Source: Acidobacteriota bacterium (GTDB lineage: Bacteria > Acidobacteriota > Blastocatellia > Chloracidobacteriales > Chloracidobacteriaceae). Taken from it: DNA of 64,000 nt. Position 1 is the first letter of the stretch. Each line of letters opens with the position of its first letter. The notes beneath the pieces are model-generated. The model had not been told where the DNA came from, did not search any database, and saw only the letters and a list, made by a program, of their open reading frames with translations. Shown here one piece after another: positions 7,879 through 55,589 of this stretch. Position numbers and translations under genes: made by a program. The DNA lies in the NCBI GenBank assembly GCA_016208495.1, contig JACQXX010000085.1, forward strand, positions 1-64,000, written 5' to 3'.

Positions 7879-9276
7879 ATGACTGACTTCGATTTAATTG
7901 TGATTGGTGCCGGCACTGGCGGATATGTCGCGGCGATTCACGCTGCCCAGGCTGGTTTGCGAACTGCACTGATTGAAAAAAATGAAAACCTTGGCGGCGA
8001 TGCGATTTTGCATGGGCTTGTACCGCGTCGGTCCTGGCAACAGAGTGCTGCGGTCTTTGAACAAACCCAATCGGCAGCGGAGTTTGGCGTCCTGGCAAGC
8101 AATGTGGCGCTCGATTTCGAAGCGGTGCAGCGCTACAAAAACAAAACGGTGCTCAAATCGGTCAAGGCCCTTGATTACTTGATGAACAAGAACAAAGTCA
8201 AAGTCTTAAAAGGGCAGGGAAAGCTTGAAGACCCAACCACGGTTGTTGTGACCACTCCGACCGGAGAGCAACGGATAACCACAGGGAAGATCATCCTGGC
8301 GACGGGTTCCACTTCGCGAACACTGCCTGAACTTCCGATTGATGGGCAGTTTATTCTCAATAGTGCGCAACTGGTTGAAATTGGGTCGCTTCCGAAATCG
8401 CTGGCGATTGTCGGTGCCGGGTCAACGGGTGTTGAACTGGCATCAGCGCTGGCCAGATTTGGCGTCGCGGTGACGTTGATCGAACAGCAAAACCGGGTGC
8501 TCCCACACGAAGACGAAGCCATCAGCCTGGAATTTGAACGGTCGCTCCGGGGCCTGGGCATCAAGATCAAAAATCATACCTACTGTGAACACGCCGAAGT
8601 AACCGGCACGGGCGTTGAACTGACGCTCAGGAATCAGGTCGGAGAGCGGCTTTCTCTGTCGGTTGATAAAGTGTGTGTGACTGTCGGGCGAGTTCCCCAG
8701 AGCGCCGGGCTGGGATTGGAGTGGACCCAGGCGGCGATCAAAAAGGGCTACGTTCAGGTCAACAAAATGCTGCAGACGGCAGAACCGACGATTTATGCCG
8801 TGGGCGACGTGGCCGACACGGTCTGGTTGCCTCACGTCGCGGCTTCGGAAGGTTTGCTGGCGGTTGGGCACATTCTCGAACGCGACGAAGTTGACCCGAT
8901 CAATTACGCCCACGTGCCGAGTTGTACCTACAGCGACCCGGAAGTGGCCAGTGTCGGGTTGACCGAAGCCGCCGCCAAAGCCCGTGGACACAAAGTCCGA
9001 ACTGGATCGTTTCCCTTTGTCGCTAACACCCAGGCGCGGGTGCTCAACCAGACCGAAGGCATGGTCAAACTGGTGAGCGACGCGCAATATGACGAACTCC
9101 TCGGCGTCCACATTGTCGGCGCGCGAGCTACAGAACTGATTGCCGAAGCGTGCATTGCCCTGCGTGGAGAAATGACAATTGACGAACTGATTCGCACCCT
9201 GCATGCCCATCCGACGCTCTCCGAGGCTTTGTGGGAAGCCGCGCTGACGATTCACAGCCGTCCAATTCGGTTTTGA
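7879..9276 (+). CDS. Lpd-like flavoprotein lacking redox cysteines
   Basis: A 465-residue FAD/NAD(P)-dependent oxidoreductase of the dihydrolipoyl dehydrogenase family. It has the N-terminal FAD dinucleotide motif GAGTGGYVAAIHAAQ (10-24), a second nucleotide-binding motif (AIVGAGSTGVELASALARFG), the FAD motif IYAVGDVAD and the C-terminal interface motif HAHPTLSEALWEAA carrying the His-Glu dyad. The active-site segment, normally GGTCLNVGCIP, reads GGDAILHGLVP (39-49), so both redox-active cysteines are replaced (A42 and L47). It therefore cannot run normal lipoamide dithiol chemistry. Known relatives that lost this disulphide act as NAD(P)H:quinone reductases or transhydrogenases, which is the best guess. 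No E2 gene is adjacent. Confidence 0.85.
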   Translation: MTDFDLIVIGAGTGGYVAAIHAAQAGLRTALIEKNENLGGDAILHGLVPRRSWQQSAAVFEQTQSAAEFGVLASNVALDFEAVQRYKNKTVLKSVKALDYLMNKNKVKVLKGQGKLEDPTTVVVTTPTGEQRITTGKIILATGSTSRTLPELPIDGQFILNSAQLVEIGSLPKSLAIVGAGSTGVELASALARFGVAVTLIEQQNRVLPHEDEAISLEFERSLRGLGIKIKNHTYCEHAEVTGTGVELTLRNQVGERLSLSVDKVCVTVGRVPQSAGLGLEWTQAAIKKGYVQVNKMLQTAEPTIYAVGDVADTVWLPHVAASEGLLAVGHILERDEVDPINYAHVPSCTYSDPEVASVGLTEAAAKARGHKVRTGSFPFVANTQARVLNQTEGMVKLVSDAQYDELLGVHIVGARATELIAEACIALRGEMTIDELIRTLHAHPTLSEALWEAALTIHSRPIRF

Positions 9277-9577: not shown

Positions 9578-9597
9578 CTTGAAGCTCAATTCCTTTC

Positions 9598-9650
9598 GAA
9601 CCCCGAACCCCGAACCCCGAACCCCGAACCCCGAACCCCGAACCCCGAAC
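9598..9650. repeat. CCCCGAA heptamer array
   Basis: About seven copies of CCCCGAA, directly abutting the stop codon of the NACHT-WD40 gene (stop at 9652-9654 on the minus strand). It is a one-base variant of the CCCTGAA unit. Confidence 0.9.
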
Positions 9651-9651
9651 C

Positions 9652-12600
9652 CTACCTCACATATTTGTCCAGCACGTCTTTCACGGCTTGTGGCTGGTAA
9701 AATTCTTTCCAGAGGTCTTCGGCGGGGTATGATCTCAGCGTGCCGAGTTCGGTATAGCGCAAATAGCGCATGCCTTCGGGGCTGCCGTCAAACCGGCCAT
9801 CCGGCAACAAATCGAGCCACGCCCCCGGTCCAAACGCGTAGCGATACAAAAACGTCTCTTCGCGTTCAAAATCCCAAAATTGCAACCGCCCCGCAGCACC
9901 TGCCGCGACCAGATATTTCCCGTTGGGTGCAAAACTGACAGTATAAACCGGCCCTAAATGTCCGTATTTGCTTTTGCTTCCAGGCGCTTTGCCCAATATG
10001 GCCAGACACTGACTGGTCTCCACATCCCACAATCGCACTGTTCCATCATCGCTTCCACTCGCTAGTCGTTTCCCATCTACCTCAAACGCCACTGAAACTA
10101 CTGGAAGCTTATGCCCTGATAGTACTCGTACCACGCGCTTTTGCTCTACATCCCACACATGCACTGTTCCATCATCATTTCCACTTGCTAGTTGCTGCTC
10201 TTCTACTCCAAAAGCTACGGAACTAACCCCAGATTGATTGCTTCTCAGTACTTGTATTGCATGTCCTTGCTCAATATTCCATATTCGCACTGTCCCGTCA
10301 GCACTTCCACTTGCCAACGACCTTCCATTTATCCCACCAAATGTTACTGATGTTACCCAAGATTTGTGGCCTTCCAGCGCCTGCACTAACTGTCTTTGCT
10401 CCAAGTCCCACACCCGTACTGTCATATCCCCACTTCCACTTACTAACTCTTTCTTATCTATCCCAAATGTTACCGAACTTACCCAAGCTTGATGGCCTAT
10501 CAATACCTGCACTACTTCTCCCCGCTCCACATTCCACACCCGCACCGTCCCACCATCACTGCCACTGGCCAACCACTTCCCATCCCTCCCAAATGCCACT
10601 GACCAAACCCTAGACTTATGGCCTTCCAACGCCTGTGCCTCCTCGCTCCGCTCCACATTCCACACCCACACCGTCCCATCGTGATTCCCACTCGCCAATC
10701 GTTTCCCATCCACCCCAAACGCTGCCGATTTTACTTCTGACTGGTGGCCTATCAATACCTGCATCACCTCACCTCGGTCCGCATTCCACACCCGCACCGT
10801 CTTGTCAGAACTCCCACTCGCCACCTGCCTCCCATCCACCCCAAACGCCACCGACCTCACCCCTGACTGGTGGCCTTCCAACACCTGCACCACCTCGCCC
10901 CGCTCTACATCCCACACCCGCACCGTCTTGTCAGAACTCCCACTCGCCACCTGCTTCCCATCCACCCCAAACGCCACCGACCAAACCCCTGACTGGTGGC
11001 CTTCCAATACCTGCACTACCTCTCCCCGCTCCACATCCCACACCCGCACCGTCCGATCAGCACTCCCACTCGCCAACCGCTTCCCATCCATCCCAAACAC
11101 CACCGAACTCACCCCTGATTGGTGACCTTCCAGCACCTGCACCACCTCACCTCGCTCCACATCCCACACCCGCACCGTCTTGTCATAACTCCCACTTGCC
11201 ACCCGCTTCCCATTCATCCCAAACGCCACCGAACTCACCCCTGATTGGTGACCTTCCAACACCTGCATGACCTTTCCCCGTTCCACATCCCACACCCACA
11301 CAGTCCCATTATTACTGCCACTTACCACCCGCTTCCCATCCACCACAAACGCCACCGAACTCACCCAATCCTGGTGGCCTTCCAACACCTGAACCACTTC
11401 ACCTCGTTCCACATTCCATACCCGCACCGTCCCATCATAACTCCCACTCGCCACCCGCTCCCCACCTCCCCCAAACGCCACCGAACTCACCCAATCCTGG
11501 TGGCCTTCCAACACCTGCACCAGTACTCCTGTCTGACTCTGGTAGAGGTACACCAGATTGCCGCTGCCAACCGCGATCAGGTTTCCATCCGGGCTGTAGG
11601 CAACTGCATTTACCTGGTTTGAATGCCCAAGCTGAACCATTGGAATCAGGTTTTGCAAATCCAGGGTAAGTGAGATCAATCCCTGACAATGCTCAATGAC
11701 AACTGTGGCAAGAATGGATGGGTCATAGTTTGCACCGCGAAAATCACAATTCCTCAACTTTGCTGAGGTAAAAGAAACACTCTCAAATTTGGCCGCTTGA
11801 AAATTGGTTTGCTCAAACTCAGCATGATTAAGGTTAGCTTTGGTAAATTCGGCATGGTGAAAGTTGGCATTGGAAAAACAGGCTGCCTCCAGCATCATGC
11901 CTTCCAGTTTGGCCTCCGGCATCTGAATTCCTGGTGGGATCCGAGTTGAAAATTCAGCTTGTAGCTTTGCCAAGTCATTGATTTTTTCTTCCATTCGACA
12001 GCGAATCCGACCGCTCCAGTACAAAAGCTGGAGCGCGTTTTCTGAGACTTTCGCTGTGTAGGGTGCCGTTAGAATCCCGCGCAAAACTTCGGCTATCTGG
12101 TCGGTTTCATCCAGCAAAGCCAAAAAGAAGACCACTTTTTGTTCAAAGCGTTTGGTGTTGAGGACTGAGCGGGCACTTTCGTCTGAGGCAATCAGGCATT
12201 CGTGGAGTTTGCAGGCCAGAAAGAACTCCATAAACGAGCGGTGCATAAACAAAAAGTTCCCGCTGTGGTCACGTTTGAGGAAGCTGGCGGCCTGGATTTC
12301 GCGGTCAACCAGTTCGGGTTCTTCGTCACCGACCGCAATCACCCGTTCGGTCATGAGCTTTTTCACAAAGGTCAAGAGTTCGCTAAAGTGAATCGCCGTC
12401 TGGTCGGTATTCCACATTTGCCACGCCAGTTCGAGCATCAGCCGGTAGCGTGTTTCACCACTCAGGATGCGGTTTTTCTTTTCGGTGTCTTCGCGTTCAA
12501 TCCACAAATCGGTGTAGACCCGATACAGCGTGGCGGTGGTCACTTTCTGGTTAGTTTGATCCAGCTCCGGCAGTGACTTGACGATCATATCCAGCAGCAA

Positions 12601-14823
12601 CGGACGATGGGCCAAATCCGCCAGATTGTGGATCTTGCGAAGTTTGCGAAGCGTCTTGACTTGTTCTGCTGGTCTGACCACCTGTCGGATGTACTGGCGA
12701 ATTTGCTTTTTATTAAACTCTTGCAGATACAGTACCTCGGCATCAGAACGCTGCCGAAGATCCCGCTTCAATTTGGTTTCTGTTTCAGAAAGTGTCGGCC
12801 CCTGGCCAATCACACGGGCCTGTTCCTCGCGGTTCTTGAAATAGTGGGTGCGACAGGTGATGAGGACCTTTCCGTTCTCTTTGGCAGCGCGGCTTAATTG
12901 GTTGAAATTGTTGCGGATTTGATCTGAAAGCATCCGGTCAGCCATTTCATCAAAGGCGTCAAAGAGCACGATGATCTTGCCGGTTTTCACCAGGTGTTCA
13001 AACCGTGAAAACAGAATGTCGCGCAGTCCCTTTTCATCAAAATGGCTGACGATGATGCCCGGAAGCGAAATCTCTTTCCGCACATCCTTTAAAGAAATCA
13101 GCACCGGCGCCGGATGCCGCACCGGGTCCAACAAGAACGCCTGTGCCCAGTTGCAGGCTAAAAAGCTGGAAATCGTCGTTTTGCCAGTGCCTAAATCCCC
13201 CAGCAGCACGAGCAGGTTTTCACGGCTGTCACCCAACCAGTCAGCGATGTATTTCAGCGCCGGAGTTGGTTTCGGGTTTTCGTACTGCCGGAGCACTTTG
13301 TCAGCCACAACGTCAGGCCGGATAAACCAGTCGTTTCCCAACCAGCGACGTTGCCGCCAGTCTTCATATTCGGCAATGAGTTTTCGGGCATAGTGCTCAA
13401 GCGGGACCAGTTCACTGAGCAATTCACCATAGGTCAGGCAGGTGATTCCGGCTTCTTCAAGCGACGTTCGTGAGCCGGCGGCAAATCCCTGGGCGGAAAT
13501 TGCAATCCACCGCATCATTGGGAGTTTGCGTTGGGCCAGGTTTTGTTGAGCCAGAATCTGGTCACGTTCCTTGCTGGTAATTTGGGTGTCTTTGCATTCG
13601 ACAATCGCCTGGATGGTAAAACCGGCTTCTTTTTTCTGAACCTGGAGATCAATCTGAATGCTGTGAAGTTCAAAGTTCCGTTTCACTTCAAAGCGCAGCA
13701 ACCGGTAGATGTCGGCGACCTCGTCTTCAAACCGCTTTCCTTTGCGATAACTTTCAGCGCCTGAAAGTCTTCGGTCTTCACGGTCAAATTTGCGCTCCCG
13801 GTGCGGGGCGTCTTCCAGTTCGGGTGCTTCACGAAGAAACCGATGTAACGGCAAATCAAGTGCTTCCAACAGTTGCCGGAAGCGAAGGTCAAAATCATCT
13901 GCCCGTTGAAAGTCAATCACTGGAATCTGTTGCAAAACTTCTGGCGTTGGGCAGAGCTTCAACAAAAGCGGAATCACCAGTCGCTCGCTGGGCGGTGCAT
14001 CCGGGTGTGATTTGAGGAATGAAGCCAGCGATTTTTGAAAACTCTGGTGACGAATCGCCTCTGGAGAAAGTCCGATGATCAGCTTGCGTGAATTTTTCAG
14101 CGCGCTGTCAAGGTTGGCGGTTTGGTGACCAGACAGAGCTGAGACGCCGGCGTCCTTCAACTTTTTGGCAAGGGTTTCGGCCCATTCGTGATCTTCGGGA
14201 GCAAAGTTGAGAAACACGTCTACGTGGGGCACCCATAACGCCTGGATTTGCTGTTGCGCCAGTTGCAATTGATTTTGGAAGCTTTCGGCCAGGGCAGGGG
14301 ACAGGTTGGGACGTGCCAGCATGTCTTCAAAGCGTTTCGCCTGTTGGAGCAGGTGGGCGACTTCCTCAGAGATTTCAAACGAGACGTGACTGGTCACCCA
14401 GTCGGAAAAATCGGCTGCTCGTGTCTGCAAATCTTTTTCGCGTTCAGGAGTCATCCACAGAATCACGGCGCTTTTGGTATCGCGAATGTCCTCCCGATGG
14501 CTGTTAAGCAGTGACAGAGCGGTGTCATATCGCTGGCGGCTTTGCTGGTGCAGATCGTCGAGTCCAATCGCAAACACACAGGCCGGCTGATGGAGCGTCC
14601 GACAAAACCGGGGCAGGCTCAACTGGTCATCCGGCTGATTGGCGAAGTCAAACTCAACGAACGAATACCCCGTGACCGTCTCCCGAAGTCGTTTGAACAC
14701 TTCACTTTGCAGCACCGCCGAATTGGCGACAAGAAAGATGATGTGTGAACGCCCCGGATTGCGCAGGCTAATCTGGAGGCGTTCCATTTGTTCGAGGAGC
14801 AACGTGTCGGAGGTATTGGCCAT
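9652..14823 (-). CDS. TIR-like/Mrr nuclease/NACHT/WD40 STAND protein
   Basis: A 1723-residue multidomain STAND NTPase, organised like an immune sensor. In order: residues about 1-160, an alpha/beta domain like a P-loop fold without Walker A (VFAIGLDDL, AVILWMTPE); about 200-330, a TIR-like domain (DVFLNFAPEDHEWAETLAKKL) with no obvious Glu at the usual NADase catalytic site; about 360-470, an Mrr-like PD-(D/E)XK nuclease (GKRFEDEV, IDL, IVECKD; D and ExK present); about 530-700, NACHT with Walker A GDLGTGKTT (near 541) and Walker B IIVLFDAFDE (near 614); about 800-960, helices; about 965-1040, pentapeptide repeats (ANFHH, ANLNH, AEFEQ); about 1060-1660, fourteen 42-residue WD40 repeats, enough for two seven-bladed propellers. 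The ATG at 14823 has a GGTTCAG array in place of a ribosome site. Phage defence or self/non-self sensing is inferred, not shown. Confidence 0.85.
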   Translation of the reverse strand: MANTSDTLLLEQMERLQISLRNPGRSHIIFLVANSAVLQSEVFKRLRETVTGYSFVEFDFANQPDDQLSLPRFCRTLHQPACVFAIGLDDLHQQSRQRYDTALSLLNSHREDIRDTKSAVILWMTPEREKDLQTRAADFSDWVTSHVSFEISEEVAHLLQQAKRFEDMLARPNLSPALAESFQNQLQLAQQQIQALWVPHVDVFLNFAPEDHEWAETLAKKLKDAGVSALSGHQTANLDSALKNSRKLIIGLSPEAIRHQSFQKSLASFLKSHPDAPPSERLVIPLLLKLCPTPEVLQQIPVIDFQRADDFDLRFRQLLEALDLPLHRFLREAPELEDAPHRERKFDREDRRLSGAESYRKGKRFEDEVADIYRLLRFEVKRNFELHSIQIDLQVQKKEAGFTIQAIVECKDTQITSKERDQILAQQNLAQRKLPMMRWIAISAQGFAAGSRTSLEEAGITCLTYGELLSELVPLEHYARKLIAEYEDWRQRRWLGNDWFIRPDVVADKVLRQYENPKPTPALKYIADWLGDSRENLLVLLGDLGTGKTTISSFLACNWAQAFLLDPVRHPAPVLISLKDVRKEISLPGIIVSHFDEKGLRDILFSRFEHLVKTGKIIVLFDAFDEMADRMLSDQIRNNFNQLSRAAKENGKVLITCRTHYFKNREEQARVIGQGPTLSETETKLKRDLRQRSDAEVLYLQEFNKKQIRQYIRQVVRPAEQVKTLRKLRKIHNLADLAHRPLLLDMIVKSLPELDQTNQKVTTATLYRVYTDLWIEREDTEKKNRILSGETRYRLMLELAWQMWNTDQTAIHFSELLTFVKKLMTERVIAVGDEEPELVDREIQAASFLKRDHSGNFLFMHRSFMEFFLACKLHECLIASDESARSVLNTKRFEQKVVFFLALLDETDQIAEVLRGILTAPYTAKVSENALQLLYWSGRIRCRMEEKINDLAKLQAEFSTRIPPGIQMPEAKLEGMMLEAACFSNANFHHAEFTKANLNHAEFEQTNFQAAKFESVSFTSAKLRNCDFRGANYDPSILATVVIEHCQGLISLTLDLQNLIPMVQLGHSNQVNAVAYSPDGNLIAVGSGNLVYLYQSQTGVLVQVLEGHQDWVSSVAFGGGGERVASGSYDGTVRVWNVERGEVVQVLEGHQDWVSSVAFVVDGKRVVSGSNNGTVWVWDVERGKVMQVLEGHQSGVSSVAFGMNGKRVASGSYDKTVRVWDVERGEVVQVLEGHQSGVSSVVFGMDGKRLASGSADRTVRVWDVERGEVVQVLEGHQSGVWSVAFGVDGKQVASGSSDKTVRVWDVERGEVVQVLEGHQSGVRSVAFGVDGRQVASGSSDKTVRVWNADRGEVMQVLIGHQSEVKSAAFGVDGKRLASGNHDGTVWVWNVERSEEAQALEGHKSRVWSVAFGRDGKWLASGSDGGTVRVWNVERGEVVQVLIGHQAWVSSVTFGIDKKELVSGSGDMTVRVWDLEQRQLVQALEGHKSWVTSVTFGGINGRSLASGSADGTVRIWNIEQGHAIQVLRSNQSGVSSVAFGVEEQQLASGNDDGTVHVWDVEQKRVVRVLSGHKLPVVSVAFEVDGKRLASGSDDGTVRLWDVETSQCLAILGKAPGSKSKYGHLGPVYTVSFAPNGKYLVAAGAAGRLQFWDFEREETFLYRYAFGPGAWLDLLPDGRFDGSPEGMRYLRYTELGTLRSYPAEDLWKEFYQPQAVKDVLDKYVR
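10490..11530 (-). repeat. Near-identical 126-bp WD40-coding repeats
   Basis: Tandem 126-bp units encoding WD40 repeats 2 to about 9 of the NACHT protein. Neighbouring units share long identical stretches; the blocks around 10860-10980 and 10980-11100 differ at only a few sites. The flanking WD repeats (1, 10-14) are much more diverged, so the central block was amplified or homogenised recently. Confidence 0.85.
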
Positions 14824-14827
14824 AGGA

Positions 14828-14898
14828 CTAGGGTTCGGGGTTCAGGGTTCAGGGTTCAGGGTTCAGGGTTCAGGGTTCAGGGTTCAGGGTTCAGGGTT
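14828..14898. repeat. GGTTCAG array abutting NACHT start
   Basis: About nine units of GGTTCAG/GGTTCGG, beginning 5 bp upstream of the NACHT-WD40 start codon and filling its expected ribosome-binding and leader region. Copy-number change here would alter the leader length. Confidence 0.9.
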
Positions 14899-15225: not shown

Positions 15226-16539
15226 TCAAAGTTTGTCCCAGGTGAGCGGATGAGCGTCGTACCAGAGCCCAGGATCCCGATAGGCCACAATGTATCGTTT
15301 ATCCAGCAAGTCTTGACTGACAGGCGTTCCCGAATGGGATTTGGTCGCGTGAACTTCCTGTAATTCTTTGATTTGATTCCGGTTGAGCGGACCGGAAAAC
15401 TTCACGGCACGGTTCTCGATGGTTTTTTGGGCCGCTACGTGGTTGATTTTTTCAATTCCCAGCAATTCAGCCTGGGTACAGACTTCCTGAATCATTCCGA
15501 TGAACGTGCGAAGGACGCCTCCACTGTGCTGAATGAGAGGATCCAGGACATCGGGTTCAAACAGATCAGAGTTGGAGAGTGAAATTTCTACCAGCCGGGT
15601 TCTGACAACCTCAGTGAAGGTGGTGTAACCCTCATCGTGTTTGGAATAAGACGTGTGAGTTGAATTTTTCTTGAACAGCTTGATATTTGGCACAAAGTAG
15701 GACTTGCATCCATCGCCAAGTTGATCAAACCCCAATGAATGAAAGACATACATCGGGACAGTATAAACCACATTACAGATTGGCCCTTTGAGCGCCTGGC
15801 TTTCCAGGAAAATCAAATCTGCCTGTTCGGGTTTGGAAAGTTTGTCGAGTCCATCAACCACAATCAGAAATCGGCGATTCAGCTTCGTCTCAATCTCAGC
15901 AATGATGAGGTTGACCGCCGTGATGATATTTTGGATTTGGGGCTCAAGTTCACGTTTGCGGGCTACTTTCTCCGTAATCCCCGAACTCATTTTAAAAGGT
16001 TTGAGCACTGATTCAGCGAGTTTGCCCCCATACTTTGATCCAACCATTTCGGCACCAAAACAGATCACGTTTTTGGCAAATTCAGCCGCATCGAACGCCT
16101 GATTGGTTACTTCTTCATCCTGGTAAATGGTGAGGTTAAAAATGGATCGTTCCAGGTCTTTGAGCAAAGATTTATCTGGATTGGCGCCATGATTCTGACC
16201 TGCTTTAAACGCCGCAATTCCCAGCAGGTACAAGATATCTATCTGGTTGGTTTGGCTCAGATCAAGATTGTGCTGGGCGTCAAAATACAGAATCAGGTAC
16301 TGAGAGGCATATTCCTTGAGGAATTTCAGGAGCAGAGAGCTTTTCCCGCTCCCACGGTGACCGATAAGGAATCCGCGCGCCGGGGATTTTCGGGCTGGAT
16401 TGCGAAAATCAATGATCATTTCCTGCAAAGGGTTGTGCTCACGTTCGCAATAGAATTGCTCCCCTCGGTTTCCTGTCAAAACTTCTGACGGGTCGAATAC
16501 ATTTTTCACCTGATCCCAAAATTCCGGAGGCCGTGGCAT
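15226..16539 (-). CDS. P-loop ATPase upstream of NACHT gene
   Basis: A 437-residue ATP-binding protein with Walker A GHRGSGKSSLLLKF (near residue 59) and Walker B RFLIVVDGLDKLSKPEQ (near 230), an ORC/STAND-like AAA arrangement. The C-terminal half (after VYTVPMYVFHSLGF) looks like a lid plus winged-helix region. Its last residues (YIVAYRDPGLWYDAHPL) could be a second small domain. There is no signal peptide or membrane segment. The ATG at 16539 has GGAG (16550-16553) about 10 bp upstream. It is the next gene upstream of, and co-oriented with, the NACHT-WD40 gene, but 402 bp of repeat DNA separates them, so an operon is doubtful. A joint role in one system is an inference from position and from shared P-loop logic. 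Confidence 0.75.
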   Translation of the reverse strand: MPRPPEFWDQVKNVFDPSEVLTGNRGEQFYCEREHNPLQEMIIDFRNPARKSPARGFLIGHRGSGKSSLLLKFLKEYASQYLILYFDAQHNLDLSQTNQIDILYLLGIAAFKAGQNHGANPDKSLLKDLERSIFNLTIYQDEEVTNQAFDAAEFAKNVICFGAEMVGSKYGGKLAESVLKPFKMSSGITEKVARKRELEPQIQNIITAVNLIIAEIETKLNRRFLIVVDGLDKLSKPEQADLIFLESQALKGPICNVVYTVPMYVFHSLGFDQLGDGCKSYFVPNIKLFKKNSTHTSYSKHDEGYTTFTEVVRTRLVEISLSNSDLFEPDVLDPLIQHSGGVLRTFIGMIQEVCTQAELLGIEKINHVAAQKTIENRAVKFSGPLNRNQIKELQEVHATKSHSGTPVSQDLLDKRYIVAYRDPGLWYDAHPLTWDKL

Positions 16540-16781: not shown

Positions 16782-17837
16782 ATGCACTCTTCAAATTCTG
16801 AATCGTTCGGTTTGAAACTACATCTTCAAAAATCTATGACCACTTCTGTAACCACCAGCACTGTAACCACTTCGCTCACGCGTGAGCAGAAGCTTGAACT
16901 CTATCACTATCTGCGGCAGACCCGCTTGCTCGAAGAACGACTGACCAATCTCTATCGCCAGACCAAGGTCATCGGCGGTCTGTTTCGCAGCCTTGGCCAG
17001 GAAGCCAATGCCGTTGGAACGGCCTACGCGCTCGATAAATCCAAGGGCGATATGATCACGCCGTTGATTCGCGACCTGGGCGCCGTCCTTGTGATGGGTG
17101 GGACGCCACGCGAGATTTTGCTTCAATACATGGCCCGCCGCGATGGTCCAAGCCGTGGACGCGACCTCAACATTCACTTCAGCGACCTGAATCGCGGATT
17201 CATCGGCCCAATTTCGCACCTTGGCGACCTGATGCCGGTGATGACTGGTGTGGCGCTCGCTTCGCGGATGAAAAAACAGGACCGTGTGTGCATGGTGTAT
17301 ATGGGCGATGGCGCGACTTCGACCGGCGCCTTCCACGAAGGACTCAACTTTGCTGCCGTCCAGCGGTTGCCGATTGTGGTGGTGGTTGAGCACAATGGGT
17401 ATGCCTACTCAACGCCGACGTCAAAGCAAATGGCGGTGGACAACATTGTTGAAAAGGCCGCTGGATATGGTATCCGCGGGGAAATGGTGGATGGAAACGA
17501 CGTGCTCGCGGTGTATGAAACCACCCGCGACGCGGTCGAATATGCCCGCTCCGGTCAGGGAACCGTGCTCATCGAATCCAAAACCTTCCGGATGAAGGGC
17601 CACGCTGAACACGACGACCAGCGGTATGTGCCAAAGGAATTGATCGAATACTGGACCGCCCGCGATCCGATTGCGCGCTACGAAAGCTATCTATTGGAAA
17701 ATCAAATCGCGACCCAGGAAGATCTCGACGGTATTGTCGCCAAAATCAACGCTCGTCTTGATGAAGACGTCGCCTTTGCCGAAGCCAACCCGATGCCGGA
17801 CGGCCCAACGGCGGCTGAAGGGGTGTATGCTTCGTGA
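16782..17837 (+). CDS. 2-oxoacid dehydrogenase E1 alpha subunit
   Basis: Thiamine-diphosphate-dependent decarboxylating subunit of a 2-oxoacid dehydrogenase (pyruvate or branched-chain type). The ThDP signature is intact: GDG at 175-177 (VYMGDGATSTGAFHEGL) and the closing Asn in VVVVEHNGYAYSTPT. RDLNIHFSD and TFRMKGHAEHDD fit the phosphorylation-loop region of E1-alpha. The E1-beta and E2 genes do not follow; a terminator lies 72 bp downstream, so the subunit is encoded alone here. An ATG at 16836 (MTTSVTTST) would shorten the protein by 18 residues and is plausible, because the promoter leaves little leader for the first ATG. Branched-chain versus pyruvate specificity cannot be told from motifs alone. 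Confidence 0.88.
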   Translation: MHSSNSESFGLKLHLQKSMTTSVTTSTVTTSLTREQKLELYHYLRQTRLLEERLTNLYRQTKVIGGLFRSLGQEANAVGTAYALDKSKGDMITPLIRDLGAVLVMGGTPREILLQYMARRDGPSRGRDLNIHFSDLNRGFIGPISHLGDLMPVMTGVALASRMKKQDRVCMVYMGDGATSTGAFHEGLNFAAVQRLPIVVVVEHNGYAYSTPTSKQMAVDNIVEKAAGYGIRGEMVDGNDVLAVYETTRDAVEYARSGQGTVLIESKTFRMKGHAEHDDQRYVPKELIEYWTARDPIARYESYLLENQIATQEDLDGIVAKINARLDEDVAFAEANPMPDGPTAAEGVYAS

Positions 17838-27777: not shown

Positions 27778-27960
27778 GAATGAAGAATGAAGAATTGAGA
27801 ATGAAGAATGAAGAATGAAGAATGAATTTGGTTTTTAGTTCTTGGTTCTTGGCTTCGAAAACCCTGAACCCTGAACCCTGAACCCTGAACCCTGAACCCT
27901 GAACCCTGAACCCTGAACCCTGAACCCTGAACCCTGAACCCTGAACCCTGAACCCTGAAC
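27778..27960. repeat. GAAGAAT and CCCTGAA heptamer arrays
   Basis: GAAGAAT units (about 27778-27826), then 35 bp of unique DNA, then about 14 perfect CCCTGAA units (27862-27960), the longest such run here. The array ends at the stop codon of the upstream kinase gene (27961-27963). Confidence 0.9.
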
Positions 27961-29892
27961 CTAGCGGTCTTTCTTTTTCTTGTCATCTTTCTTTTTCTTG
28001 TCATCGTCTTTGCCGGCGATTTTTTCCAATCCCTTTTTGATCCCTCCGCCCACTTTCCCCCAAAATCCTTTCTTTTCTTCTTTTTGGGCTACCGGTTCAG
28101 GTTTGGTGCTGGTCGTGGGTGGTGGTTTCGGTGACGCCGTATCGGGTTCAGTTTTGACTTCGGTGGTATCTGGACCGGCATCCGGGGTGGCGTTCACTGG
28201 AGTGGTTGGTTTGGTTGATCCCGTTTTGTCTGGTGAGCCGGTCTCGCTTCCTGGATCTGTTGTGCTTGACCCATTTTCAGAGAGAGGCGGCACAGTGGTT
28301 GTCGGCGCTCCAGAGTCAACTGGTTGGGTCGTTGCCGGTGGCTTTACCAGTGGCGTACCGTTGGTTGAAGAACCTGGACTGAGCAACGACATTGTCCCCA
28401 GGGCTGCCCCTCCGACCCCAATCAAGAGAACGGCGCCGATGGCCAGGGGACGCCACCGGTTTGGCTGGCTGACTGGTCCGGTTCCAGCACTGGTGGCCAC
28501 TACCAGGCTGGTCGGTGCACTGAGTGGTGTGGTTTCATCAATTGCCCTGGTGGCCGGTGTGGTCAGAACCTGAGTGGCGACGGCGGCTTTGGCTTTCCGT
28601 TCCTCGATCAAAGGGATGTCTTTGATGGGGACTTGCTCGGTTGATTGAATGGTGACATAGGCGGCGGCATCAGGATATTCCTCCGCCACCGGTGGCACGG
28701 GTGGCAGTGTCTCCAGATGCTCCGAGTGGGACTGGTTGCCCGATGAAAAGCTGGGACCGGTGATGGTGAGTGCGGCGGGGGTCGCGTTTCCCTGAACGGT
28801 TAAAAATGATTCCGGCGGAGCGAGTGAACTCGAAACCAGAGGTGCCGACACTGGCGTGTCGGTGTTTTCGATGGCGCGGGTCGCCTGGGTTCGAGTTCGT
28901 GCAAATGCCTGCTCGATTTGCTCAAAGAACTTTCGAACTGAAGCTGGCCGCGCGTCTTTTTCTTTTTCCAGCGCGTGCATAATCGCATCGCTGATATCAA
29001 CTGGAATATGTGGGTTGACCTGAATCGGCGGCTCGGGTTTTTTGGTCAGATGGGCGCTTAACACACTGACGACTCGGCCCCGAAATGGTGGTTGCCCGGT
29101 CAGCATTTCATAGAAAATCACCCCCAGGCTGTAAATATCGGCCCGGTGGTCGAGTTCACCACCGTCACAATGTTCCGGCGACATATAGGCCGGAGTCCCC
29201 AAAATTTCCCCCGTCCCGGTCAGATTGGCAATCGAGTCTGAAGATTCAATCAGTTTGGCCAGTCCAAAATCGAGGATTTTCACCAGGACATCGCCCTGCT
29301 CATTGTCTTTGAGCATGATGTTTTCCGGTTTCAGGTCACGGTGAATGATGTTTTTGGTATGGGCGGCGTCAACACCCGCGCAAATCTGTTGAACGAGTTG
29401 AAATGTAGTGGAGATTGGAAGCGCGCCTTGAGCCTTTAATAACTCACGCAACGACTGGCCTTGAATATATTCCATAACCAGATAGGCATTGCCATCGCCC
29501 AGGATCCCAAAATCATAGACGGTAATGATGTTGGGATGTTCGATCCGGGCGGCGGTGCGTGCCTCGCGCAGAAACCGATCACCCAGATTCTGAGTGCCCA
29601 GCAAATCAGCGCGCAATACTTTCACGGCCACGACCCGATCCAGCAAGAGGTGACGGGCACGATAGACTGCCCCCATGCCCCCACGCCCAAGGACAGATTC
29701 AATCTGAACTTTGCCGTCAATGACCTGGCCAACCAGGGCTTCGAAGGGGGATGTTATTGAAGCCGGAGCCGGGCCCACACCAGCCACCGTCATGGCGGCA
29801 TCTGGTGAGACGAGCTTGAGTTCTGTCCCATCAGCGGAACAGAAGGCAATAGCATCAGGATACTGTTTCTGACAGACCGGGCACTGTTTCAT
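27961..29892 (-). CDS. Zinc-ribbon Ser/Thr protein kinase
   Basis: A 643-residue kinase. An N-terminal zinc ribbon (CPVCQKQYPDAIAFCSADG) is followed by a linker and the catalytic domain: GRGGMGAVYRARH, VAVKVL, HRDLKPENIM, DFGLAKL, GTPAYMSPE. A long Pro/Thr linker leads to one transmembrane segment (LAIGAVLLIGVGGAALGTM, about 510). The tail ends in a Lys/Asp-rich stretch (KKGFWGKVGGGIKKGLEKIAGK and then alternating D and K), encoded partly by 15-bp repeats. Start ATG 29892 (MKQCPVC) is fixed by the ribbon; the frame to 29955 adds nothing conserved. Zinc-ribbon-to-kinase fusions of this type are common in Acidobacteria. Confidence 0.92.
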   Translation of the reverse strand: MKQCPVCQKQYPDAIAFCSADGTELKLVSPDAAMTVAGVGPAPASITSPFEALVGQVIDGKVQIESVLGRGGMGAVYRARHLLLDRVVAVKVLRADLLGTQNLGDRFLREARTAARIEHPNIITVYDFGILGDGNAYLVMEYIQGQSLRELLKAQGALPISTTFQLVQQICAGVDAAHTKNIIHRDLKPENIMLKDNEQGDVLVKILDFGLAKLIESSDSIANLTGTGEILGTPAYMSPEHCDGGELDHRADIYSLGVIFYEMLTGQPPFRGRVVSVLSAHLTKKPEPPIQVNPHIPVDISDAIMHALEKEKDARPASVRKFFEQIEQAFARTRTQATRAIENTDTPVSAPLVSSSLAPPESFLTVQGNATPAALTITGPSFSSGNQSHSEHLETLPPVPPVAEEYPDAAAYVTIQSTEQVPIKDIPLIEERKAKAAVATQVLTTPATRAIDETTPLSAPTSLVVATSAGTGPVSQPNRWRPLAIGAVLLIGVGGAALGTMSLLSPGSSTNGTPLVKPPATTQPVDSGAPTTTVPPLSENGSSTTDPGSETGSPDKTGSTKPTTPVNATPDAGPDTTEVKTEPDTASPKPPPTTSTKPEPVAQKEEKKGFWGKVGGGIKKGLEKIAGKDDDKKKKDDKKKKDR

Positions 29893-36365: not shown

Positions 36366-36619
36366 AGAGTGACAGAATGACAAGGTGACAAGGTGACAAG
36401 GTGACAAGGTGACAAGGTGACAAGGTGACAAGGTGACAAGGTGACAAGGTGACAGAATGATAAAGTGACAGAATGATAAAGTGACAGAATGATAAAGTGA
36501 CAGAATGACAAAGTGACAGAATGACAAGATGGCTTTTATTCGAAACCCTGAACCCTGAACCCTGAACCCTGAACCCTGAACCCTGAACCCTGAACCCTGA
36601 ACCCTGAACCCTGAACCCT
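36366..36619. repeat. GTGACAAG array next to CCCTGAA array
   Basis: The first part (36366-36530) is an octamer array: about nine GTGACAAG units and then GTGACAGAATGATAAA double units. The second part (36541-36619) is about ten CCCTGAA heptamers. They are joined by 10 bp. This fills almost the whole gap between two divergent genes, leaving about 15 and 35 bp at the ends for promoters. Confidence 0.9.
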
Positions 36620-36653
36620 GGATACATCCAACACTGCACGTAGGAAACCAGCT

Positions 36654-43524: not shown

Positions 43525-46500
43525 ATGAACTTTCAGCCCAGGTCTTTCATTTTGTTTGGTTTGATGTGGTTCGTTATCGTGATGTTTGGGAATTATCCAG
43601 TGGTCAGAGCCCAGGCTTCGACTCTGGAGACGATTCAGGCTGGAACAAAACTCGAACGTGACCTGACTGGTGGGGCCAGCCAGCAGTTTTCGGTTTCACT
43701 GCAAGCAGGTCAGTTTTTGAAAGTTGTGGTTGAACAAAAAGGGATTGACGTCGTGGTGCGATTGCTTGATGCCGACGGACAAATCCTGACTGAAGTTGAC
43801 AGCCCGAACGGCACCGAAGGCCCGGAGTCACTTGCCTTTGTCGCGAAAAAACCCGGCCTGTATCAGGTGCAGGTTGAATCACTTGAAAAAGACACTCCTG
43901 CCGGGAAATACACGCTCACGGTTGACGCGATTCGGCCAGCGACCAAAGAAGATCGCGCTGGGTTACGAGTTGGCCGGCTCAATACCAAAACCCAGAAGCT
44001 GTATCAGGAAGGCCAGTCAGACGCTGCGTTTGAAGCCGCAAAGAAAGCGGCGACTGTGGCTGAGAAACGATTATCACCAGATGACCCCGAACTGGCCGTT
44101 GCGCTCAACAATCTGGCGACTTTCCATCGAGATCGGGGCGAATTCCCACAGGCAGTCCAGCTTTATCAACGGGTGATTCCCATGTTTGAAAAAGCATTTG
44201 GCCCAGAGCATCCACAACTGGCCACGGCGCTGAACAATTTGGGAATTGTCCTTCGGGATCAGGGCGAATATGTGCTGGCCGAGCCGATGCTCCAGCGGTC
44301 AAACACAATTCTGGAGAAAATGCTCGGACCGGAAGACCCAAATCTGGCGGCTGGATTTAGCAATCTGGGGCTGGTCTACTTCAATCTGGGCGAATATCGG
44401 AAGGCAGAGACGTTGCTGGTGAAAGCACTGGCGATAGCTGAGAAAGTGGCTGGTCCTGAACATCCGCTGGTTGGAACGTTCCTCAATATTCTGGCCGGTC
44501 TGTATCAGACGATGGGCGATTATGTGCGGGCCGAACCGCTCTATCAGCGCTCGCTGGCGATTCGTGAAAAAGCGTTTGGTCCAGATCATCCGACGACGGC
44601 TGCCACGCTGAACAATCTGGCGTTGCTCTATCAAACCAAAGGCGATTTTGCCCAGGCCGAACCGATTTTTCGGCGAACGCTCCGGATTTGGGAAAAGACG
44701 GCTGGTCCGGAACATCCAAACACTGCCGTTGCGCTCAACAATCTGGCCTTGCTCTATCAGGACAAAGGCGACCTGGCTCAGGCTGAAACCACTTTCGAGC
44801 GGGCACTCGCTATTCGTGAAAAAGTGCTTGGACCTGAGCATTCTGATGTTGCCATCACGTTGAATAATCTGGGTTTAATCGCCAAATCGAAAGGGAATCT
44901 GAAACTGGCGGAAGATCATTTTCGCCGGGTCCTGGCCATTCGTGAAAAAGTTTTAGGACCAGAGCATCCAGATGTGGCGGATATCCTGTGCAGCCTGGGG
45001 ATGCTCAAACAGGAGGCCGGTCATCCAGCGGAAGGTGAGCCGATGCTGCTCCGCGCCTGGGCGATTGATCAAAAAAGCCTTGGCCCTGAGCACCCAGACG
45101 TGGCTGGAACGGCCAGTTTGCTGGCTGAGTTTTACCAGCGGGAAGGTCAAATTGAAAAGGCCATCCGCTATCAGGTGCAGGCCAATGACATTCGCGAGCG
45201 CGAACTGGCGCTCAATCTGGTGGCTGGTTCAGAACGCCAAAAGTTGTTGTATCTCAATCAAAGTCAAACGGATCTGGATCAAACACTTTCACTGCTGGCT
45301 GCGGATGGCGGACGTAACCGCGACGGACTCCGGGCCGGGCTGACTGTGGTGCTGCGTCGGAAAGGACGTTCGCTCGATGCCATGGCTGACAGCATTCAGA
45401 CATTGCGGCAACGGGCATCAGCCGAAGACCGGATGTTGCTGGATGAATTGACCACCGCGAAAACCGCGCTCGCGGTTGCTTCGCTCCAGCGCGGCGGAGT
45501 CGTATCAACCACGCCGCTCGGAAAACGGATTGCCGCGCTGGAAGTCAACATTGAACGGCTTGAAACGAAAATCAGCGCCCGGAGCATTGAGTTCCGTGTT
45601 CAAACACAGCCCATCACATTGGAAGCCATTCAAAAAACACTCCCGCCGGATGCCACGCTGGTTGAATATGCCGTGTTTTATTCCTTTGACCCAAAAGCCA
45701 GGCGGCTGGGCGCTCCGCACTATGGAGTGTTTGTGCTTGGCAGCAAAGGCGAGCCGCAATGGGCCGACCTGGGAGACGCGCAAGTGATTGAATCAGCAGT
45801 GGATGCCCTCCGTCAGGCGCTTGGTCAGCGGAGTTCTGCCGTGAAACGGCTGGCTCGAAATCTTGAACAATTGATCTTTGCGCCAGTCCGAACACTGGCT
45901 GGAGCGAATGCCAGATGGTTTTTGCTCTCACCGGATGGACGGCTGTCGCTGGTGCCATTTGCGGCGCTCGTTGATACGAAAGGGCAGTTTCTGGTCGAAA
46001 ACTACTCGCTCGGCTATGTGACCAGCGGGCGGGATTTGCTCCGACTTGAAGCCAGCGTCAACAGCGGACAACCGCCGGTGATTATGGCGGATCCGGAGTA
46101 TGGCCAGGGCGACGGGCCGATGCTGGCCGGGAATCGCTACAAACCACTTTCAAGGCTGGAAGGAACAGAACAGGAAGGCCAGTTTATCCAGAAGCTATTT
46201 CCAAAAGCGGAGTTGCTGGTGAAAAGGCAGGCGACCAAAAAAGCACTGAAAGGGATTACCCGACCATTGCTGCTGCACATTGCGACGCACGGCTATTTCC
46301 TTGAAAATACTGCCCCTTTGCCGATGCCCAACGTCACGGATATGCGATTGCTGGAACGCGAAGAAAGCACCCTGCCATTTAACATCGAAGCGTGGCGCGG
46401 TGCCAGTCCGTTACTGCGGGCCTGGCTTTTTCTGGCCGGAGCCAACGCGCCTTCTCAGGATGACGACGGGACCCTGACGGCTTTGGAAGCGACTGGATTG

Positions 46501-46827
46501 GATTTGTGGGGAACGAAACTGGTGGTTCTGGCGGCCTGTGACACCGGGGTTGGCGACGTGAAAAACGGAGACGGCGTGTACGGCCTCCGACGCGCCCTGG
46601 TGCTGGCCGGGAGCGAAACCCAGATGATGAGCCTCTGGCCGGTTTCAGATACTGGCACCCGCGAGTTGATGATGGGGTTTTACCAGCGTCTCCAGGCCGG
46701 AGAAGGCCGCGCCCAGGCACTCCGCAACGCCCAACTGCACCTGCTCAAGAACCCCCGGTGGCGGCATCCTTACTATTGGGCGAGTTTTATCCAGTCCGGC
46801 GTCTGGTCACCAATTTTCACGAAGTAG
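43525..46827 (+). CDS. Secreted TPR-CHAT caspase-like protein
   Basis: A 1100-residue exported protein. Signal peptide about 1-30 (ends VVRAQ). About 35-145 is a beta-rich PPC-like domain (FSVSLQAGQFLKVVVEQ...GLYQVQVES...GKYTLTVDAI). About 150-560 contains nine to ten 42-residue TPRs of the kinesin-light-chain type (LATALNNLGIVLRDQGEY, GPEHP...). About 560-780 is helical. About 800-1095 is the CHAT peptidase fold: His in LLHIATHGYFLEN (near 918) and Cys in LVVLAACDTGVGDV (near 1003), then GLRRALVLAGSETQMMSLWPVSD. Both catalytic residues are present. CHAT domains are caspase relatives; in signal-peptide-bearing forms the substrate is unknown. Confidence 0.92.
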   Translation: MNFQPRSFILFGLMWFVIVMFGNYPVVRAQASTLETIQAGTKLERDLTGGASQQFSVSLQAGQFLKVVVEQKGIDVVVRLLDADGQILTEVDSPNGTEGPESLAFVAKKPGLYQVQVESLEKDTPAGKYTLTVDAIRPATKEDRAGLRVGRLNTKTQKLYQEGQSDAAFEAAKKAATVAEKRLSPDDPELAVALNNLATFHRDRGEFPQAVQLYQRVIPMFEKAFGPEHPQLATALNNLGIVLRDQGEYVLAEPMLQRSNTILEKMLGPEDPNLAAGFSNLGLVYFNLGEYRKAETLLVKALAIAEKVAGPEHPLVGTFLNILAGLYQTMGDYVRAEPLYQRSLAIREKAFGPDHPTTAATLNNLALLYQTKGDFAQAEPIFRRTLRIWEKTAGPEHPNTAVALNNLALLYQDKGDLAQAETTFERALAIREKVLGPEHSDVAITLNNLGLIAKSKGNLKLAEDHFRRVLAIREKVLGPEHPDVADILCSLGMLKQEAGHPAEGEPMLLRAWAIDQKSLGPEHPDVAGTASLLAEFYQREGQIEKAIRYQVQANDIRERELALNLVAGSERQKLLYLNQSQTDLDQTLSLLAADGGRNRDGLRAGLTVVLRRKGRSLDAMADSIQTLRQRASAEDRMLLDELTTAKTALAVASLQRGGVVSTTPLGKRIAALEVNIERLETKISARSIEFRVQTQPITLEAIQKTLPPDATLVEYAVFYSFDPKARRLGAPHYGVFVLGSKGEPQWADLGDAQVIESAVDALRQALGQRSSAVKRLARNLEQLIFAPVRTLAGANARWFLLSPDGRLSLVPFAALVDTKGQFLVENYSLGYVTSGRDLLRLEASVNSGQPPVIMADPEYGQGDGPMLAGNRYKPLSRLEGTEQEGQFIQKLFPKAELLVKRQATKKALKGITRPLLLHIATHGYFLENTAPLPMPNVTDMRLLEREESTLPFNIEAWRGASPLLRAWLFLAGANAPSQDDDGTLTALEATGLDLWGTKLVVLAACDTGVGDVKNGDGVYGLRRALVLAGSETQMMSLWPVSDTGTRELMMGFYQRLQAGEGRAQALRNAQLHLLKNPRWRHPYYWASFIQSGVWSPIFTK

Positions 46828-55322: not shown

Positions 55323-55589
55323 GGTACTGCTTAGGGTTCAGGGTTCAGGGTTCAGGGTTCAGGGTTCAGGGTTCAGGGTTCAGGGTTCAGGGTTCAGGGT
55401 TCAGGGTTCAGGGTTCAGGGTTCAGGGTTCAGGGGAATACCGTTCGTGCAACCAGTTCACTCTGAATTCTGACAACCTGATGATTTGAATGATTTCGCAG
55501 GAAGATGAAAGAATAAAGAATCCAGCCTTAAAAAGGCGGAAATAAAGCTGAAATTTTTTTACTTTCTCCAGTCATTCCTTGCAAAATGC
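55323..55589. repeat. GGTTCAG heptamer array and short gap
   Basis: About 15 perfect GGTTCAG units (55329-55434), beginning 7 bp upstream of the zinc-ribbon protein's ATG. The remaining about 150 bp before the glnE stop is unique. Confidence 0.92.

Follow-up and report, generated by a model that had tools for sequence, protein, structure and literature searches.

bNACHT and Avs proteins combine an N-terminal effector, which can be a nuclease, with a central NACHT/STAND module and a C-terminal repeat sensor. Both the bNACHT (bacterial NLR-related) proteins and Avs are cited in PMC13236601. The same article describes the LypABC/CARD-NLR systems, in which an Orc1-like active ATPase-TPR protein is paired with a protein bearing a Walker-less ATPase domain (PMC13236601). 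In nSTAND2 systems, one of two adjacent genes encodes an active STAND-type NTPase and the other an eroded NTPase that carries variable effectors, and hetero-assembly of the two has been predicted (Kaur et al. 2021, eLife, PMC8195603, Fig. 6C); the effectors described are GT4 and HEPN (PMC8195603). The MoxR-vWA ternary systems are NTPase-thresholded modular conflict systems in which repeat or effector modules are swapped (2020, eLife, PMC7159879).

We focus here on a locus in a 64,000-nucleotide stretch of DNA from a soil-type bacterium of the Acidobacteriota (class Blastocatellia; contig JACQXX010000085.1), referred to below as the window. Its features are as follows:

7879..9276, plus strand: flanking gene for dihydrolipoamide dehydrogenase (lpd), next to pdhA in several relatives
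9652..14823, minus strand: whole receptor gene, N-domain-TIR-Mrr nuclease-NACHT-pentapeptide-WD40, 1723 aa (ORF and Pfam)
9844..11628, minus strand: 14 WD40 repeats, residues 1066-1660 (Pfam)
11689..11922, minus strand: pentapeptide repeats, residues ~968-1045 (Pfam)
12676..13215, minus strand: NACHT NTPase core, residues 537-716, with Walker A GDLGTGKTT (542-550) and Walker B LFDAFDEM (620-627)
13429..13731, minus strand: Mrr-like PD-(D/E)XK nuclease, residues 365-465, with D392 and E409-x-K411 intact (motif, fold and homologue)
13867..14217, minus strand: TIR domain, residues 203-319, with ~8 BB-loop residues missing, Q in place of the W and A in place of the catalytic Glu (TIR_2, predicted fold)
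14344..14823, minus strand: N-domain, residues 1-160, of degenerate P-loop type, with GLDDL at 87-91 and no Walker A
15226..16539, minus strand: 437-aa partner ATPase, an AAA+ protein in the ORC/Cdc6-STAND group, next gene upstream of the receptor
16782..17837, plus strand: flanking gene for pyruvate dehydrogenase E1 alpha (pdhA), on the other side of the insertion

We read this locus, with a probability of roughly 0.58, as a two-gene NLR-like conflict cassette, probably anti-phage, whose nuclease output is gated by an ATPase/pseudo-ATPase pair. The known part is an NLR-like STAND conflict system; the new part, apparently undescribed, is the paired ATPase and pseudo-ATPase. No description of this pair was returned by a search of mainly open-licence literature, in which absence is weak evidence. 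Like bNACHT/Avs proteins, the receptor has an N-terminal effector, a central NACHT/STAND module and C-terminal repeats, but it stacks the N-domain, a degenerate TIR and a nuclease, carries both pentapeptides and WD40 repeats, and has an obligate-looking partner ATPase. Comparison of the receptor with PADLOC models gave no Avs match, only chance-level or WD40-driven matches, none of them beyond noise for the core. With nSTAND2 the cassette shares the pairing of an active NTPase gene with an eroded-NTPase gene carrying variable modules, an analogous organization only; unlike the GT4 and HEPN of nSTAND2, these modules are TIR-Mrr-NACHT-WD40, TPR, NB-ARC and nSTAND1-WD40. Because the nSTAND2 model PF20702 is not among the Pfam matches listed for the window ATPase, the N-domain or the N-terminal half of the receptor, the cassette is, as far as tested, an analogue of nSTAND2 and not a member. 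In the same genome, PF20702 matches only one gene, an unrelated one (contig C37, L160 6186-8294, E = 6.5e-88), whose ~700-aa nSTAND2 product has no evident second NTPase gene beside it. The MoxR-vWA systems are similar in their modular swapping, and one homologue of the ATPase occurs in a SAV_2336 protein beside MoxR, but the window cassette has no MoxR or vWA gene next to it, its neighbors being lpd, pdhA and the ATPase only. The combination of an active ATPase with a Walker-less ATPase-domain partner also recalls LypABC/CARD-NLR, a likeness drawn from the description of those systems; they differ in their peptidase effectors and CARD domains.

Receptor Architecture and Effector Domains

The receptor gene is one uninterrupted ORF of 1723 codons. 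A first-pass annotation, made without database searches, had described a single 1723-residue multidomain chain with an intact NACHT NTPase, and both statements are borne out, the former by the ORF together with Pfam matches to TIR_2, the NACHT group, pentapeptides and 14 WD40 repeats, the latter by the presence of both Walker motifs. Residues 537-716 match the Pfam families NACHT, nSTAND3 and NPHP3_N, with NPHP3_N above its cut-off and NACHT (E = 9e-6) just under. The receptor qualifies as STAND/NLR-like by its intact Walker A and Walker B, by the position of the Mrr-like nuclease N-terminal to NACHT, and by its sensor-type repeats (14 WD40 plus pentapeptides) at the C-terminus. This layout is not a chance arrangement, because close relatives repeat the TIR-REase-NACHT-pentapeptide order at 45-54% identity.

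In the WD40 region, nine consecutive 42-aa units form a 126-bp tandem array at 10472-11522 with a mean DNA identity of 77%, which suggests recent amplification and a diversified surface. Replacements within the 42-aa unit of this array are concentrated at positions 5, 7, 13, 17, 23 and 25. At the "hypervariable" positions pN/pS exceeds 1, a ratio that is biased because the positions were chosen for their variability.

TIR_2 matches residues 203-319 with an E value of 2e-13, above the Pfam cut-off, and structure comparison of the predicted model also finds a TIR fold. The domain lacks both the BB loop and the WxxxE-like Glu expected of a catalytic TIR NADase. TIRs of relatives without the ATPase/N-domain pair carry WFD...LQPGD as their BB-loop motif and, within W-x-x-A-E, a Glu at what we take to be the site of the SARM1-type TIR catalytic Glu. 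Both features are kept in three relatives (G040, G044 and G034) and lost in the window.

The nuclease is weak in Pfam alone (REase_MTES_1575, E = 5e-4, below cut-off). Its residues D392...E409-x-K411 are conserved and intact in the window, G040, G044 and G105, and the G105 homologue, which has no TIR, matches Mrr_cat (E = 9e-11) ahead of its NACHT and pentapeptides. In the predicted structure of residues 1-501, the nuclease part resembles archaeal NucS/EndoMS and AF1548 (2vld, 5gke, 1y88), and the D...ExK active site of an Mrr/PD-(D/E)XK nuclease is located on the predicted fold. The first-pass annotation had named the D and ExK residues, had suspected the TIR of lacking its catalytic Glu, and had proposed structure prediction as a check on both folds. 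Conserved motif, Mrr_cat homologue and predicted fold back the nuclease; the suspicion about the TIR is confirmed, with orthologues lacking the N-domain that do carry the Glu; and prediction, run on residues 1-501, recovered both folds. Since the TIR motifs are lost and the nuclease residues intact, the receptor is likely to act by cleaving DNA; on the best reading the nuclease is the warhead and the TIR plays a structural part.

Loss of the TIR catalytic residues could also be a first step in the decay of an inactive insertion, leaving a non-functional gene, and several relatives are broken (G034 by a split frame, G080 by a stop in its ATPase). We regard decay as highly improbable, however, given 1723 codons without a stop and Walker motifs and nuclease residues that are intact across both genes.

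The Partner ATPase and the N-Domain

The partner ATPase contains Walker A GHRGSGKSS (60-68), Walker B IVVDGLDKL (226-234), an invariant R315 and a predicted winged-helix-like C-terminus. Its predicted model (pLDDT 88.6) is similar to ORC/Cdc6, TnsC, RuvB and the defense ATPase RdrA. The receptor and ATPase genes lie on the same strand, and in the 402 bp between them no promoter or terminator signal is strong. Membership of the ATPase in the DS41 and Sll1717 families was rejected, the matches being too weak; the Sll1717 P-loop ATPase family (NCBIfam NF047389) scored 24.9 bits (E = 1e-5) against a cut-off of 75 bits. Neither the Sll1717 family name nor the partner ATPase family appears in any paper found by the literature search, again mainly of open-licence papers.

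No Pfam family matched the N-domain (the first 160 residues), and a PDB sequence profile search returned nothing useful. In the predicted model (pLDDT ~90) it adopts a P-loop-like alpha/beta fold of five strands, in which GLDDL resembles Walker B and Walker A is missing; fold and sequence agree with the earlier description of a P-loop-like N-domain without Walker A. Residues R110, W123, A136 and D138 are nearly invariant. A Foldseek search with the model of residues 1-501 also retrieved AAA+ structures (ORC, CbbX, Vps4, FtsH); we infer that these belong to the N-domain from length and strand order, because Foldseek gave no matched residues. Profile-profile comparison of the N-domain with the ATPase aligns Walker B and the next strand sensibly, at a level that is not significant alone (E = 0.012, probability 4%).

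The first-pass annotation read one gene as the unit and missed the adjacent AAA+ ATPase gene; because that gene belongs to it, the unit is two genes. A paralogous locus in the same genome (contig C74) encodes the same pair, with an ATPase 29% identical to that of the window and an N-domain-NACHT protein 16 bases downstream, and the genome has four such pairs (C85, C74, C155 and C45). Searching named genomes with a profile of six ATPases gave 66 loci, which span Acidobacteriota, Cyanobacteria, Chloroflexota, Bacillota, Bacteroidota, Proteobacteria/Desulfobacterota and the candidate phylum UBP6. For the 64 of these that were checkable (not cut by a contig end), an iterated profile placed the N-domain in the directly downstream, same-strand gene in 50 cases (one of them fused, L071) and in an adjacent gene on the opposite strand in one; 13, all cyanobacterial, have no N-domain neighbor. 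In the reverse direction, an N-domain profile applied to 162 genomes of the class placed 21 of 21 checkable N-domains just downstream of an ATPase. Both components occur in 14 of these genomes, the ATPase only in 1, the N-domain only in 2 and neither in 145 (Fisher p = 3e-17), the three single-component genomes comprising two weak matches and one contig end.

Across 63 pairs, the ATPase and N-domain distance matrices correlate with r = 0.877 (permutation maximum 0.236), a value that partly reflects shared phylogeny; less affected is the matching within genomes carrying several copies, where each ATPase and its N-domain mostly share nearest relatives. The ATPase and N-domain co-evolve as a pair, and their linkage and co-variation suggest physical contact between them.

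Two variants depart from this arrangement. Seven of the 13 cyanobacterial ATPases without an N-domain are of a ~960-aa Calothrix type (L098 4279-7170 and six similar loci), in which another domain with weak ATPase-profile matches precedes the ATPase and a conserved ~430-aa gene comes before. In a Deltaproteobacteria MAG (L071 1536-6068), the ATPase and N-domain are fused in one frame ahead of NACHT-HEAT. This fusion was set aside as structural evidence: mixed alignments were misaligned, and neither the tail of the ATPase nor the first helix of the N-domain is present at the junction, which a deletion or an assembly chimera could explain.

Module Swapping and Insertion at the Locus

The modules behind the N-domain vary and include TPR, NACHT, NACHT-HEAT, NB-ARC-TPR, nSTAND1-WD40 and TIR-nuclease-NACHT-WD40. 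Of 32 N-domain proteins, mostly from outside the cyanobacteria, 22 have TPR and 8 have NACHT, and WD40 occurs in 22/23 cyanobacterial ones (nSTAND1-WD40 in the member taken as example). Relatives occur on plasmids, including a pair on a conjugative plasmid beside NB-ARC, TIR and TPR genes, and many cassette copies stand isolated between unrelated genes, not in an obvious defense island. A scan of viral contigs found no relatives of the core protein, and phage records gave no ATPase match. On a Nostoc sp. C057 plasmid (L170 4246-7170), a protein with a SAV_2336 N-terminal domain has a relative of the partner ATPase as its C-terminal module and lies beside a MoxR-type ATPase; judging from this gene, the partner-ATPase family serves also inside a MoxR-type system.

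The many TPR partners without a recognized effector, the phage records without a match and the copies away from defense genes would suit a general signaling or chaperone switch (development, stress), with this copy wired to a nuclease for phage-unrelated programmed cell death. Such a switch is improbable, as the intact nuclease, the apparently recent WD40 amplification, the plasmid copies and the fusion to conflict-system parts point to conflict instead. Still, the pair need not always be immune, because TPR-only versions have no visible effector.

The first-pass annotation could match the domain order of the receptor to no described class. The odd layout is real, but the order TIR-nuclease-NACHT-pentapeptide-WD40 is not unique, since G040 encodes a near-complete orthologue of 1541 aa that starts at the TIR. 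G040, G044 and G034 hold the three nearest relatives of the TIR-nuclease-NACHT module, all without the N-domain and ATPase; neither component was found at these loci or at that of G105, the G044 contig ending nearby. The window pair groups with pairs whose N-domain precedes NACHT, yet its NACHT is 54% identical to those of N-domain-less TIR-REase-NACHT proteins and only ~33% identical, over 100 residues, to that of an N-domain cousin. Because the NACHT is closer to the N-domain-less proteins and G040 still has the bare form, it appears that a TIR-nuclease-NACHT-pentapeptide-WD40 protein, complete beforehand, acquired the N-domain and its ATPase ahead of it. The Mrr-NACHT-pentapeptide gene of G105 is the fourth in a type I HsdM-HsdS-HsdR operon (L033 75-9089), its start being one base beyond the end of HsdR.

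Complete-looking orthologues without the N-domain and ATPase, such as that of G040, along with the bare Mrr-NACHT-pentapeptide form of G105, are what would be seen if the receptor acted alone like bNACHT/Avs, defending through its Mrr nuclease after ligand binding, with the ATPase and N-domain as a regulator unneeded for triggering. We consider independent action rather unlikely, because the pair is kept in both directions and co-evolves, and the TIR has decayed only in the version having the pair.

In G001, the nearest relative searched, 135 bases separate the homologues of lpd and pdhA, which share a strand, and the two genes are also adjacent in G010, G015, G017 and G014. This adjacency in several relatives shows that the two-gene cassette was gained by insertion between lpd and pdhA. 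The first-pass annotation had held that homologues always found in housekeeping operons would speak against its reading; this objection fails, the cassette being an insertion into such an operon. Between genes of the window, many 7-bp tandem arrays (mostly CCCTGAA/AGGGTTC) lie at 9597-9652, 14830-14898, 27860-27961, 36544-36620, 55333-55434 and other positions; one ends 7 bases short of the ATG that starts the NACHT gene, and another extends to the stop codon of that gene. A further candidate conflict or signaling protein, of 1100 aa with TPR and a CHAT-like C-terminal region, is encoded at 43525-46827.

Proposed Mechanism and Implications

The preferred reading of a gated two-gene cassette draws on computed support for the architecture, residue states, ATPase-N-domain linkage and co-evolution, module swapping, TIR decay and insertion at the locus. 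The defense contexts of relatives, namely the HsdM-S-R operon of G105, the pair on the conjugative plasmid and the SAV_2336 fusion beside MoxR, also speak for it. The first gene of the cassette would provide an active ORC/STAND-group AAA+ ATPase, and the second a receptor whose leading domain is an inactive P-loop unit reserved for this ATPase. Held off by its WD40 propellers and pentapeptides, the receptor would use them to detect a molecule of the invader, while the active ATPase and the pseudo-ATPase N-domain would join in a mixed assembly to license or drive receptor opening. Oligomerization of NACHT would then bring the Mrr-like nucleases together to cut DNA (phage, host or both), and the TIR, its catalysis lost, would serve as a structural or assembly part. 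The probable role of the cassette is phage defense.

A broader proposal, tentative and somewhat short of an even chance, is that of an undescribed multi-phylum immune module made up of a dedicated ORC-like ATPase and a pseudo-ATPase adaptor; the adaptor would have been put before unrelated receptors (TPR, HEAT, NB-ARC, nSTAND1-WD40 and TIR-nuclease-NACHT-WD40), bringing them under the control of the partner ATPase, much as in a bacterial counterpart of helper/sensor NLR pairs. At the present locus, TIR catalysis would then have been lost, leaving the nuclease as sole output. A testable rule follows the pair: where the N-domain is present, an ATPase gene precedes it, whatever module comes after. 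The rule predicts a two-ATPase switch in receptors of cyanobacteria and other phyla for which "WD40" or "TPR repeat protein" is usually the only annotation. Because orthologues exist both with the pair and without it, and with live and dead TIRs, they offer a natural comparison for the licensing of bacterial NLR-like proteins, and the same comparison bears on which of two stacked effectors, TIR or nuclease, kills.
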